Assembly (NCBI RefSeq): GCF_041146795.1
Contig: NC_135170.1
Location: 31,545,533-31,609,532, forward strand
DNA: 64,000 nt
Direction of reading: 5' to 3'
Source of the DNA: Maylandia zebra
Lineage: Eukaryota > Chordata > Actinopteri > Cichliformes > Cichlidae
Both the position numbers and the translations under genes were made by a program. This document shows positions 2,144 through 28,135 of the stretch, one piece after another. The notes beneath the pieces were generated by a model. It searched no databases. It was given only the letters and a program-made list of their open reading frames with translations, and had not been told where the DNA came from. The first letter of the stretch is position 1. Each line of letters starts with the position of its first letter.

Positions 2144-5100
2144 GTGTGGCCAGAGGTGTTTGGGCACAGCTCCACTTTCATTCCACAGCGATTGATCATC
2201 AATAGAGCCAGCACTGGCTTATCCAGGCTGCACAGGTCACATCTTTGTGGCTGTACTGCTGTGGATCAGGTCACTGTGGTGCATTCTTTTTTAATAATGC
2301 ATTAAACATTAAACAAGAAAATAAATAAATAAAAGAACTGACATTACCCTGTTATTGCTTATACAAGGATGGGCTTGCCTAATTGAATTTTCCACTACTT
2401 TTGCTGTGATGTATGTAGGAAAGAATGACATCTTTGGTGAACCCATCAATCTGTACGAGAGGTCAGGGAAATCCAGCGCTGATGTCAGGGCTTTGACATA
2501 CTGTGATCTTCACAAGATCCTGAGGGACGACCTTCTGGAAGTGCTAGACATGTATCCTGATTTTTCCAACATGTTCTGGAACAATTTGGAGATCACCTTC
2601 AACTTGAGAGACGTGAGTGCCACCAGGGGGCGTTGTTACACAGCATCCTGCTTGTGATTAGAGTTTAGAGTCATAGATTTATGTCTCAAGATCTATTCTG
2701 TTAGTAAAAACGTAGCAAATCAACTGAGATGTTGTCATCATGACATCATAAACATGCTAAAACTGCATTTTCTGCCCCGGTTTTAATCGGTCCGCTATGC
2801 CTTTCCTCTCTGTGATGAGTGTAACTTTGTGTGGGGTCACGCTTTTCTTTTAATTTCTTTTAAGGGTTAGGGCAGAAATACCTGCCTTTCTCTTTTGGAA
2901 ACAGGAACTTCCAGTTTGCTGATCTCTAGTGCTGTCAAGAAGATAAACTAGAACCATGTCTATCATTTCAAAGTAAATGAATCTATTACATTTTCCAAAA
3001 TGCTCCCATATGACTTCATGACGTTGTTATTTCTTGTTATTTATAACTAATATTTATAACAGTACAATAAATAGAATAGAATTGCCCTTTATTGTCATTG
3101 CATGTGTACAATGAAATTGTGATCAAACATGTATAAAATGTCCATTAAAGACATTTCTTTTCATATATTACTCTGTCAGTCCTGAAATAATCACAGTGGC
3201 TAACTGGAGCCTTCCTGGTTTCTGAGTGTGGTGCCGTTTCAACTTAAAACTAAACGGTTTGGAAAAGCACTTAATGTGAGGGCCCTCCAGACAAACATGT
3301 AAATATAGGCAAAGTGTGCAGGAGGGTTTAGAGGCAGTATTGAAACTGGGGCATTTGAACAACACACTCAGTAAGCATTGTGCCACAGCGCTACAAGTGG
3401 TTACCAGTATCAGAGGTAATCTTAAGTGGTAAAATCATAAAGATCTCACCTAGATTTCTAAATATACTGATGGAAAAGGTGCTGTATGTTTCTTTTAAGC
3501 AGGAGATGTGGTTTGTAATTTTGAATTACTGAAGCTGATCTGTATCAGGTAGATAGAATAAACCAGACAACCCCAGGCAGGGACTCTGAATGTGGCTATC
3601 GTCTGACGAGGCATCGGAGAAGCTCACTGCGTCGGAGAAACAGGCCAGGTGAGTAAGGGACGCGGTCTAACGCCAAATGCTCCTGTATCAACTTATTGTC
3701 TTATTCCTATCTGAGCTGTGACTCTGTGTGGACAGACGGGATGGATCGTGAAGACTCTTACCCAGATCAGTCACGTTCGATGTCAAACCACCACCGGGGA
3801 ACAATGGCAGGATCTCATTGGGAAGACCTCTGCAGCAGTGCTAGTATATGTTCACAGTCTAGTGATGAGGAAATGAAGCCCATAGGACACAGCAAAGGGG
3901 AGTTGTACCCCCATGCGGGTGATACCAGAGACTATCCATCCGCAGTAGTCAACCTTCTGCCTCACAGTGGACCTTCAGCTGGACTCGGCCCGCCTGTAGA
4001 CCTTGGAGGACCTCCATACTCAGGTAAAATCCACTTAAAACACTTTTGGAGGCACAGAGAACACAAAAACTCCACAAATGTAAATTTTTTATTCCATTTT
4101 AATTTGCTTTTTTTGGTTTGAATGCAGCACTGATAGATAAATAAAAAATAACTGTGGAGTAATACATTCGCATATTTTAACAAACATTTTTTCAAGAAAT
4201 GATTGTTCTTTTACTTTTGCACAGCAGCAACCCCTATCAACATGCCAGGCCTGTATAGCTACTGGCCAGACCGCAGAGCAAGTCAGTTTTCAGACAGCCA
4301 GAGGCGGCCATCCTCAGTAAGGGCGAGTTTTCACCCTTCACCCTGTGCTGAAGATCGGCCCAGTGAGCTAGAGTCTCGATTGGAGCTGCTTCAGTCACAA
4401 TTAAACCGGTAAGCTAGACTTATGTTGTTTTAGAATTAAAGAAATAAACAAAAAGGGGGCACCCGGATTTGAACCGGGGACCTCTTGATCTGCAGTCAAA
4501 TGCTCTACCACTGAGCTATACCCCCGGTGCAGAGGCCCCTGGGAGGTGGATGCATTTGTCACTGTTGTCCCAAGGCAGTGTTTGCATTTCAGCTCCACCC
4601 TTTCTGTGTTTGCATATCAGTTTCCAGCTGAGTGCTTACTACATGGGGCTATTTTGCATGTGTGTGAGAGAAAAGGAGGAGTAAGAACAAAATAAACAGA
4701 GATAAGAAAGGGTCAGGGGTGAGACTGAAAATGTCCATCATGTATGTTTTCTTTTAACTGCCTGCCTGCTTCCACGTGAATGATCGTGATGATTCTATAG
4801 CGACAGATAGAGAAAAGTGTGTTAACACTCATAATGCTTTATAGAAGTGTTCTGACCAGGATCAAATCATAGAAATCAAAGAAAAAATGTGTGAAAGAGT
4901 CTTGAAGCCATATATCTTTATCTTCTTGTCTTGTCCAGACTGGAGACCCGTATGACTGCAGACATTAATGTGATCCTGCAGCTCCTTCAGAGACAGATGG
5001 CTCTGGTGCCTCCGGCCTACAGCGCTGTGTCCCCCAGCCCTCACCCACCTCATCCCACCACACTGTACAGCACGGGCACACCCACAATCCACACCGTCCC

Positions 5101-8229: not shown

Positions 8230-8301
8230 GGGGGTATAGCTCAGTGGTAGAGCATTTGACTGCAGATCAAGAGGTCCCCGGTTCAAATCCGGGTGCCCCC
8301 T
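8230..8301 (+). tRNA. tRNA-Cys (GCA), intergenic between kcnh6 and dcaf7
   Basis: A complete 72-nt cloverleaf, with the same body as the copy at 4454-4525 (T arm CCCGG TTCAAAT CCGGG), anticodon GCA and discriminator T. It is followed by TCTTTTC, a good RNA polymerase III stop. Third tRNA-Cys within 7.2 kb. Confidence 0.96.
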
Positions 8302-8568
8302 CTTTTCACCCTTCTACCAACACAAACTGAAATTATGTTTATTGGAGAGAGGCAACTGAGCGTAAGGTGAAAATGACCCCGAACTATAAATAGACAGCTC
8401 TGGCTCTCTGAGAACTGCAGGATGAATGTGCTGACAGCAGTAGCTTTCTAAATAGATTAACTCGTGCCATGCAAAGGCAGCAACAGTAAAATGATCTTAC
8501 AAAAGCTGGGGGGCAAAAAAGAAATAAGGCAACACAAGGCTTAGTTTGTAAGACATGGAGGAATACAA

Positions 8569-16993: not shown

Positions 16994-19021
16994 ATGCCAC
17001 AGGAGTCATTAAATAACTTATCTTCTGGAAGCGATAGTGGAGATGAGTCACTAAGAATGCAGCTTGAGGCTAGTGAGATGAGACTGTCTCAAATTCACAG
17101 AGACGTAGTGCTTCAATTTGAGCACAACCGTAGAAGAAATGCAAAACAAAGGGAAGAGCTCAAAAATATTAAGAAAGAAAACGCAGATCTCATGCAAGAG
17201 CTCAAAAATAGTTGGAAAGACAATGCAGATCTCAGGGAAGAGCTCAAAAATATTAGGAAAGAAAATGCAGATCTCAAGCAAGAGCTCAGAAATAGTAGGA
17301 AAGACAACTCAGAACTCATGGAAGAGCTAAAAAGTAGTAGGAAGGAAAACGCAGAGCTCATGGAAGAGCTCGAATATAGCAGGAAAGACAACACAGAGCT
17401 CAGGGAAGAGCTCAAAAAAAGTAGGAAAGACAACTCAGAACTCATGGAAGAGCTCAAAAATATTAGGAAAGAAAACCCAGATCTCAATCAAGAGCTCAAA
17501 AATAGTAGGAAAGACAACTCAGAACTCATGGAAGAGGTCGAAAATATTAAGAAAGAAAACGCAGATGTCAGGGAAGAGCTCAAAAATATTAGGAAAGAAA
17601 ACCCAGATCTCAAGCAAGAGCTCAAAAATAGTAGGAAAGACAACTCAGAACTCATGGAAGAGCTCAAAAATACTAGGGAGGAAAACGCAGAGCTCATGGA
17701 AGAACTCGAATATAGCAGGAAAGACAACATAGAGCTCAGGGAAGAGCTCGAAAATAGTAGGAAAGACAACTCAGAACTCATGGAAGAGGTCGAAAATATT
17801 AAGAAAGAAAACGCAGATCTCAAGCAACAGCTCAAAAATATTTGGAAAGACAACTCAGAACTCATGGAAGAGCTCTAAAATATTAAGAAAGAAAACGCAG
17901 ATCTCAGGGAAGAGCTCAAAAATATTAGGAAAGAAAACCCAGATCTCAAGCAAGAGCTCAAAAATAGTAGGAAAGACAACTCAGAACTCATGGAAGAGGT
18001 CAAAAATATTAAGAAGAAAACGCAGATCTCAGGGAAGAGCTCAAAAATATTAGGAAAGAAAACCCAGATCTCAGGGAAGAGCTCAAAAATAGTAGGAAAG
18101 ACAACTCAGAACTCATGGAAGAGGTCGAAAATATTAAGAAAGAAAACGCAGATCTCAGGGAAGAGCTCAAAAATATTAGGAAAGAAAACCCAGATCTCAA
18201 GCAAGAGCTCAAAAATAGTAGGAAAGACAACTCAGAACTCATGGAAGAGGTCAAAAATATTAAGAAGAAAACGCAGATCTCAGGGAAGAGCTCAAAAATA
18301 TTAGGAAAGAAAACCCAGATCTCAGGGAAGAGCTCAAAAATAGTAGGAAAGACAACTCAGAACTCATGGAAGAGGTCGAAAATATTAAGAAAGAAAACGC
18401 AGATCTCAGGGAAGAGCTCAAAAATAGTAGGAAAGACAACTCAGAACTCATGGAAGAGGTCAAAAATATTAAGAAGAAAACGCAGATCTCAGGGAAGAGC
18501 TCAAAAATATTAGGAAAGAAAACCCAGATCTCAGGGAAGAGCTCAAAAATAGTAGGAAAGACAACTCAGAACTCATGGAAGAGGTCGAAAATATTAAGAA
18601 AGAAAACGCAGATCTCAGGGAAGAGCTCAAAAATATTAGGAAAGAAAACCCAGATCTCAAGCAAGAGCTCGAAAATAGTAGGAAAGACAACTCAGAACTC
18701 ATGGAAGAGCTCAAAAATAGTAGGGAGGAAAACGCAGAGCTCATGGAAGAGCTCGAATATAGCAGGAAAGACAACACAGAGCTCAGGGGAGAGCTTGAAA
18801 ATAGCAGTAAAGAAAACGCAAAGCTCTTGGAAGAGCTTGAAAATAGCAGGAAAGACAACACAAAGCTCAGGGAAGAGCTCGAAAAAAGCACGAAAGCGAA
18901 TGCAGAACTCGTGAAAAATGTGGAAAATAATCAGCGCCTACTTAAAGTAGGTTTAGGTCTTGCCACAGTGGCCATTGTTGTTCCTGCAGCTTGCTGGGCC
19001 ATCTCAATGCTTTTCGGCTAA
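16994..19021 (+). pseudogene. Single-exon tail-anchored coiled-coil repeat protein gene, interrupted
   Basis: I do not recognise the family. The start MPQESLNNLSSGSDSGDESL has a good context (AAAAAAATGCC). A Ser/Asp-rich head of about 55 residues is followed by 42 tandem 14-residue units (for example LKNIRKENADLREE), then a C-terminal hydrophobic segment (LLKVGLGLATVAIVVPAACW) ending MLFG, typical of a tail-anchored membrane protein. Each unit is two heptads with L, I/S/Y, N, L at a/d, so an Asn falls at an 'a' position every second heptad, as in parallel dimers. No introns. The frame is cut by TAA at 17876-17878 (a Lys codon AAA in other units) and by three identical 1-bp deletions at about 18013, 18264 and 18473, which together restore the frame before the tail. 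The first 294 codons are open. Either a recent pseudogene, a gene with population-variable repeats, or assembly error in the array. Confidence 0.6.
17159..18919 (+). repeat. 42-bp tandem repeat array, 42 units
   Basis: Units begin at CTCAAAAATAT or CTCGAAAATAG and end at GAAGAG. The array is 1761 bp, which is 42 x 42 minus the three single-base deletions, so there are no other indels. Units fall into classes (NADLREE, NPDLKQE, NSELMEE, NAELMEE, NTELREE) that recur in the same order, showing block duplication of 3 to 6 units. Confidence 0.95.
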
Positions 19022-21543: not shown

Positions 21544-21756
21544 AAAGAAAGAAAACGCAGATCTCAGGGAAGAGCTCAAAAATATTAGGAAAGAAAACGC
21601 AGATCTCAAGCAAGAGCTCAAAAATAGTAGGAAAGACAACTCAGAACGAAGGGAAGAGCTCTAAAATATTAAGAAAGAAAACGCAGATCTCAGGGAAGAG
21701 CTCAAAAATATTAGGAAAGAAAACCCAGATCTCAAGCAAGAGCTCGAAAATAGTAG

Positions 21757-27411: not shown

Positions 27412-27598
27412 GTTGTAACTATCCCCACTAGTGAAGACTGTCATTTCCACAATACTGCCCCCCTAGGTCCGCAGCGCTGTTAAAAAGGCTGTGGAGGTCC
27501 CTGTATTAAGCACGTAAACCTGTGACACAAAAATCACCAAACTGAGACCACCACAGACTGTTTTCCTTCGTGGTGATGAAGGAAAATGCTGGGCTGGC

Positions 27599-28130
27599 TG
27601 TGGCGTGGGTGTGGTCCTTGGCCAGCTGCAGAGGAGGCGTGACGCAGTGAGCTCCCGGGGCGGCGCAGGGGCGGGGTGAACAGGTGTGCTGGGATCTGAC
27701 AGTGATTGTGTCTCTTTATGTGTTGGCAGTGACAGACGGAGAAGGAACGTGACAGCAGAGAAAGAGAGCGCGGAGTATATGTGTCCACTACAACCCGAGC
27801 TTAATAAAAAGTTCTGCACTGTCAAAAGTCGCTCCGGCTGGTATTTCTTGGGTCCACCGTTACACTGGTGCCGAAACCCAAGAAATACCAGCCGGAGCGA
27901 CTTTTGACAGTGCAGAACTTTTTATTAAGCTCGGGTTGTAGTGGACACATATACTCCGCGCTCTCTTTCTCTGCTGTCACGTTCCTTCTCCGTCTGTCAC
28001 TGCCAACACATAAAGAGACACAATCACTGTCAGATCCCAGCACACCTGTTCACCCCGCCCCTGCGCCGCCCCGGGAGCTCACTGCGTCACGCCTCCTCTG
28101 CAGCTGGCCAAGGACCACACCCACGCCACA
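27599..28130. mobile_element. Palindromic LTR insertion: LTR plus primer-binding site joined to inverted LTR
   Basis: Left part is an LTR starting TGTGGCG (27599) and ending GTTACA (27864), with AATAAA at 27803-27808, followed by the primer-binding site TGGTGCCGAAACCC (27866-27879). From 27876 on the sequence is the exact inverse of 27599-27853, reaching the complement of the LTR start at 28130. Arms are 255 bp with no indel; the loop is 22 bp. The whole is flanked by the 5-bp duplication CTGGC (27594-27598 and 28131-28135). The LTR element family (Gypsy or BEL/Pao) is not decided. Confidence 0.9.
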
Positions 28131-28135
28131 CTGGC

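Follow-up and report, generated by a model that had tools for sequence, protein, structure and literature searches.

The window, by which we mean the whole stretch of 64,000 nucleotides analysed here, contains a palindrome made of a complete LTR, one C, a primer-binding site (PBS) and an inverted copy of the same LTR (Table 1). The two arms are 100% complementary over 255 bp and enclose a loop of 22 nt. Both outer ends are U3 ends, the inverted arm finishing at the TG start of the LTR, and a perfect duplication of CTGGC flanks the whole. Each of these features had been proposed by a sequence-only reading of this DNA and was confirmed when recomputed, except that the inverted arm stops 11 bp inside the 3′ end of the LTR and not 12. 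A perfect inverted repeat of this length, bounded exactly by the LTR end and by 5-bp duplications, excludes a chance match, so that a chance origin was ruled out. No other long match to the LTR lies within the window, and RNA folding of the LTR together with the PBS was unremarkable (z 0.55).

Table 1. Features of the LTR palindrome, in window coordinates
Feature	Position	Strand	Remark
Left target-site duplication, CTGGC	27594..27598	.	
Complete LTR, 266 bp, TG...CA	27599..27864	+	Identical in sequence to three solo LTRs of the assembly (L004, L005, L006)
TCTTGGGT in U5, putative template site of the fold-back primer	27846..27853	+	Sole LTR site pairing with ACCCAGGA over its whole 8 nt (7 Watson-Crick, 1 G.T)
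Unpaired centre, 22 nt	27854..27875	.	U5 end and PBS start
PBS, TGGTGCCGAAACCC	27866..27879	+	14 nt matching tRNA-Phe; one C between LTR and PBS
AAGA, PBS positions 15-18	27880..27883	+	Identical to what the U5 template encodes
Inverse copy of LTR positions 1-255	27876..28130	-	Terminates at the U3 terminus; complement of 27599-27853
Right target-site duplication, CTGGC	28131..28135	.	

The window has further repeats of other kinds. About 42 copies of a 42-bp repeat occupy 17152-18910, with a second small array downstream at 21547-21756; the repeat overlaps open frames at 16994-17878 (with Pfam matches of coiled-coil type) and at 18366-18914. Three similar tRNA-Cys(GCA) genes lie in alternating orientation at 1100-1172, 4454-4525 and 8230-8302.

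Parent family and its ordinary copies

The assembly containing the window (962 Mb, 63 contigs) was searched with the palindrome as query, yielding at least 80 matches; 40 of 155 candidates were scored. Unlike the window, the assembly has many long LTR matches among those listed, and the LTR ends that were read belong to single LTRs and to LTRs paired in direct orientation. There are eight young pairs. Their starts lie 4.5 to 4.6 kb from each other, and within each pair the LTRs are identical over the aligned part, which marks the family as young. Its target duplication is 5 bp, perfect in 17 of 19 young single LTRs (the exceptions are L004 and L039).

The three pol pieces of one element (L049) match, in this order, Integrase_H2C2 and rve, RVT_1, and RNase H. 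An integrase encoded ahead of the reverse transcriptase is described as the mark of the Gmr1 branch of Ty3/gypsy (PMC8220671). On the domain order of this single element, the parent is a Ty3/gypsy retrotransposon of Gmr1-like arrangement, and a young one. Inverted or odd repeats also occur in DIRS-like and Penelope-like elements, which pair reverse transcriptase with a tyrosine recombinase or a GIY-YIG endonuclease; neither enzyme was found in the parent pol pieces scanned, which matched rve integrase and RNase H instead.

Of the copies read, those of the window palindrome's LTR subfamily (L004-L007, L022, L023) are all single LTRs, three of which are identical, and no full-length member was seen among them. 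Besides recombination, direct insertion of a single LTR is a possibility for these copies.

Four U3-U3 insertions

We searched the assembly for the junction between loop and inverted arm, allowing up to 3 mismatches, with the reversed pattern as control. The matches listed comprised the window, a locus on contig C11 and three others; the reversed control gave three matches too. The three others, each with 3 mismatches, lack any surrounding LTR and were set aside as chance. The C11 locus is what the sequence-only reading had suggested looking for in this genome, a palindrome with a loop ending in the PBS and with 5-bp duplications. It spans 532 bp (C11:9857560-9858091) in flanking DNA unrelated to the window, has its own duplication (ATAAT), and has its junction at the same base as the window, the two centres differing by one base. 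The arms of the C11 palindrome show 12 differences from those of the window that recur in both C11 arms, one of them an inserted base (C against T). Between themselves, before the loop, the C11 arms differ twice: at that inserted base, position 200 (C to T, at a CpG), and at position 250, the junction base. In an alignment of LTRs, the C11 arms come closest to L020 and L041, the LTR pair of one full element, with 2 differences in the first arm and 4 in the second, and the window arms are identical to L004, L005 and L006. The same junction in two LTR subfamilies with unrelated flanks means that the structure formed at least twice, in two independent events.

A solo Ty3/gypsy LTR shares with these palindromes its LTR sequence, its TG...CA ends and its 5-bp duplications, but it runs from U3 to U5, with one end of each kind, whereas the window and C11 insertions are both U3-U3 with a central PBS. 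The likeness to MITEs is also partial. MITEs and other elements with terminal inverted repeats and short target duplications are non-coding and are amplified by a DNA transposase. The palindromes have such repeats and duplications too, but would have been made by reverse transcription and moved by the integrase of the LTR element, not by a cut-and-paste transposase. If the palindrome were nevertheless a mobile unit, an LTR-derived inverted-repeat element copied as such, the shared junction of two copies with separate target duplications would be explained, as would the perfect terminal inverted repeats. Among the matches listed, however, the junction exists in two copies alone, each tied to a different ordinary LTR subfamily to which it is closer than to the other copy, with the differences recurring in both arms; and two further U3-U3 insertions (described next) have other junctions. 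We consider a self-copying palindromic element very unlikely and rejected it.

A census of the family was made with a U3-start pattern (up to 3 mismatches), which gave at least 88 matches, grouped into 74 sites: 10 paired direct, 60 single and 4 convergent (window, C11, C10 and C14). The paired sites are 8 young and 2 older, the latter 3.3 kb apart with their ends partly read. Three pairs of older single sites share flanks and look duplicated, so that independent sites number about 71. Among the matches listed, 29 young sites have exact U3 starts, of which 8 are full elements, 19 single LTRs and 2 U3-U3. These counts cover one LTR family in one genome.

The C10 insertion (C10:25592099-25592344, 246 bp) is U3-U3 with a perfect duplication, ATGCA. 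Its fold-back lies inside U3, the plus strand having stopped near U3 position 140, and GACAGTC pairs there on GATTGTC with 6 Watson-Crick pairs and one G.T, the primer's G being kept. At C14 (C14:6541157-6545630) the LTR is an older one, interrupted by a nested insert of about 3.9 kb, and after it come the PBS and leader (239 nt together) and a 47-bp inverted piece of U3; the fold-back is in the leader beyond the PBS, the microhomology at the junction is short, and the duplication (GTGAG/ATGAG) matches at 4 of 5 positions. Of the four we are least sure of this one. The nested insert itself, read in L115 (C14:6541100-6545700), has TGTA...TACA ends with ATAT on both sides.

At all four sites both outer ends are thus exact U3 termini, abutting a 5-bp duplication that is perfect in the window, C11 and C10 and matches at 4/5 positions in C14; TG...CA termini with a duplication of the family's length are the form of an integrase-type insertion. 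Where the arms can be compared they differ at 0/255 positions in the window and at two in C11, with no difference up to position 108 in C10 or up to 47 in C14. Searches for other inverted arrangements were negative. No inverted U5 pairs within 20 kb were found among at least 38 U5-end matches, with a pattern drawn from the young subfamilies. No inverted LTR piece (E <= 1e-3) was found within about 1.5 kb of the 41 older single U3 starts, a search in which very short pieces are missed, and none beside the 19 young single LTRs, whose flanks were covered to about 400 bp on either side in 15 cases and to at least 1.5 kb in the other 4. An exact-match scan of viral contigs gave no match.

These termini bear on two further explanations. 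Inverted LTR pairs can come from nested insertion, and a nested or inverted insertion that later underwent deletion or inversion would agree with the short microhomology at the C14 junction. Against such a history stand the lack of an internal target duplication, the PBS at the centre and the fact that, at separate sites, each U3 terminus lies exactly at a 5-bp duplication; we regard rearrangement after integration as highly improbable and rejected it. Palindromes are also a known artefact of long reads, produced by an inverted read or a missed hairpin adapter. An artefact would have mirrored the flanks too, whereas the mirror halts exactly at the LTR ends with their duplicated targets in four separate places, and we give this explanation almost no credence.

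The tRNA-templated end and its pairing

PBS positions 15-18 read ACGC in four of the eight young full elements, AGGC in two, AGGA in one and TGGC in one, and the 41 nt downstream of position 18 are identical in 8/8. Whether the tRNA-binding site runs past the 14 nt seen in the window had been left as a check; these elements (L013-L020) show four variable positions followed by constant sequence. Variation of this kind would be expected if an 18-nt tRNA copy meets mismatching element RNA and the mismatch is resolved either way. Copying of the primer usually halts after 18 nt, short of the modified base 58 of the tRNA. As an observation in its own right, the variation at positions 15-18 looks like a footprint of tRNA copying and could be used to map plus-strand stop points in other families.

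The C11 loop has AGGA at these positions (including C11 position 250), and its nearest full element, L020, has ACGC. One other full element, L016, carries AGGA, so the motif by itself is no proof of a fresh tRNA copy. As a test fixed before the result of the tRNA search, we took the tRNA end TCCTGGG as against TCCCGGG. Of at least 64 tRNA-Phe-like 3′ ends in the genome, 53 would give exactly TGGTGCCGAAACCCAGGA, 8 would give GGGA, 1 AGGC (in a stretch not called by ARAGORN) and 2 another end. All 53 are on contig C5, 52 of them clustered at 18.300-18.361 Mb (L065, L066; C5:18.25-18.36 Mb), mostly in steps of 1.09 kb; the part of the cluster that was read has two tRNA-Phe(GAA) genes with a tRNA-Lys(TTT) between them. 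The T stem of the arrayed tRNA-Phe has a T matching the PBS extension AGGA, and the dispersed tRNA-Phe-like ends that were read differ there. Because 8/64 of the ends listed give GGGA and 1/64 AGGC, it is by inference that we name the arrayed tRNA as the primer.

A plus-strand strong-stop product consists of U3-R-U5 and the tRNA-templated PBS, ending 18 nt into the tRNA. At C11, TGGTGCCGAAACCCAGGA is followed directly by AATACC of the inverted arm, and the AGGA there, together with the tRNA ends giving TGGTGCCGAAACCCAGGA, lets the loop be read as a tRNA copy ending at position 18. In the window the AAGA is what the template encodes, which leaves the end of the primer anywhere between PBS positions 14 and 18. 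Either a G.T pair would have been repaired to the template in the window or priming would have been from a shorter end; at C11 the primer's G was kept opposite the template T.

The 3′ end ACCCAGGA pairs on TCTTGGGT with 7 Watson-Crick pairs and one G.T. Priming had earlier been ascribed to ACCC on GGGT, of which the fold-back near the U5 end stands; the 4 nt were rejected as a sufficient explanation, since ACCC has three GGGT sites in the LTR against one for ACCCAGGA. The priming site is probably the 8 bp of ACCCAGGA on TCTTGGGT with its one G.T. An equally good site arose in 90/5000 shuffles of the last 60 nt and in 49/2000 shuffles of the whole LTR, so that one as good as TCTTGGGT is not very rare by chance. 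When seven tails were folded with DNA parameters, the 3′ end was fully paired at TCTTGGGT solely for A and AGGA (-6.3 kcal/mol for AGGA). Two AGGA ends are predicted to form a duplex of -12.2 kcal/mol; in the co-fold of two 36-nt ends GGGA did better than AGGA (-15.6 vs -14.0), by pairing elsewhere.

Origin of the insertions

In all four cases the 5′ end is the U3 start and the 3′ part repeats this start inverted, as would result if the 3′ end of a nascent plus strand were extended on plus-strand DNA to its 5′ end. We put the probability that the insertions arose from such self-complementary priming of plus-strand DNA at roughly four in five. Plus-strand synthesis would start beside the polypurine tract, with the U3 start as 5′ end, and would copy U3-R-U5 and then up to 18 nt of the tRNA-Phe primer, giving a strong-stop DNA ending in ...GAAACCCAGGA. 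This end would pair with TCTTGGGT near the U5 end and be extended to the plus-strand 5′ end, leaving a U3 terminus on both sides. A plus-strand origin is well supported, and the strong-stop origin first proposed for the window gains from C11, where another LTR subfamily has the same junction with AGGA as the arrayed tRNA-Phe would template it. Strong-stop DNA is a natural pausing product, and its end fits 2/4 cases, the window and C11; the fold-backs of C10, inside U3, and of C14, beyond the PBS, fall outside it.

The molecule that would have reached the integrase can be pictured in two ways. In the one we prefer, two plus-strand molecules in one particle would pair at their imperfect palindrome and prime each other, much as in a PCR primer dimer. 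This would yield a linear duplex, mismatched at its centre and ending in U3 on both sides, which integrase would insert with the ordinary 5-bp duplication. Retroelement particles carry two genomes. Two co-packaged genomes have been invoked for HIV-1 (PMC9278108), and a retroviral integrase is able to work on two like ends in vitro: when U5 ends were supplied pre-cleaved, Rev-A gave 26 concerted products with the 5-bp duplication, besides 13 half-site and 4 multiple half-site ones (PMC3790719). Our preference for the dimer, a modest one, is due to its supplying two U3 ends directly and to this like-end integration. It is weakened by the absence, wherever arms can be compared, of any sign of two RNA templates, which dimers formed from different RNAs should sometimes reveal. 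At C14 the loop would measure about 470 nt once the nested element is discounted, and so large a mismatched bubble sits awkwardly with a reciprocal dimer.

In the other, a single strong-stop DNA would fold on itself, be extended to a hairpin and later be opened or copied into a two-ended molecule. This agrees with arms that are identical in the window and, outside the centre, in C10, and nearly so in C11, and with a predicted intramolecular fold in which the 3′ end is paired; self-priming of minus-strand strong-stop DNA has moreover been described for HIV-1 (PMC4668388). A hairpin has one U3 end, however, and a 5-bp duplication needs two ends joined together; two opened hairpins would also be expected to have variable centres, and those of the window and C11 differ by one base. 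We therefore consider the single-molecule route possible but rather unlikely. Of the snapped-back hairpin put forward by the sequence-only reading, the self-complementary priming is retained, hairpin and dimer both being candidate forms of the intermediate. The structure of the insertions, their duplications, the parent family, the tRNA match and the recurrence are shown by the sequences. From these integrated copies, no reverse-transcription intermediate having been observed, we infer that self-priming took place, that it involved a dimer, that integrase acted on the product and, at the window, that the G.T was repaired or the primer was shorter.

Two HIV-1 systems come near to mutual or self-priming of this kind. 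In minus-strand self-priming the 3′ end of a strong-stop DNA likewise folds back and primes itself, as an aberrant by-product that is reduced by nucleocapsid protein (PMC4668388); the by-product there is minus-strand, whereas the DNA here is plus-strand and integrated. In proviruses with asymmetric LTRs the plus-strand strong-stop DNA misuses a template between two co-packaged genomes and is still integrated, but by strand transfer to a normal PBS, with deletions, and 'palindrom' is absent from the main text of that report (PMC9278108). No title or abstract in the literature we searched, on such structures and on self-priming, describes integrated U3-U3 palindromes, most subscription papers being outside the scope of that search. 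The palindrome is an insertion of an LTR element, yet reverse transcription as usually described does not supply integrase with molecules of this type.

The four insertions in one genome suggest an unrecognised route by which elements enter chromosomes, and suggest that the integrase of an LTR element can use two U3 ends in vivo. U3-U3 palindromes are an insertion class that repeat annotation could easily misfile as solo LTRs or drop as assembly errors, and the class is testable in any well-assembled genome. Reverse-transcription intermediates are usually studied in vitro or in infected cells; one here appears fossilised in a chromosome with its tRNA-templated end readable, a natural read-out of where the plus strand stops on the tRNA and of how often strand transfer fails. 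Tentatively, mutual priming may be a regular side path of LTR-element reverse transcription, making integration-competent molecules with two U3 ends that account for about one insertion in twenty in this family. If so, genomes would be seeded with ready-made inverted repeats of the element promoter that could form hairpin-RNA or cruciform loci, and the loops would document the tRNA primer at a stage that strand transfer later erases.
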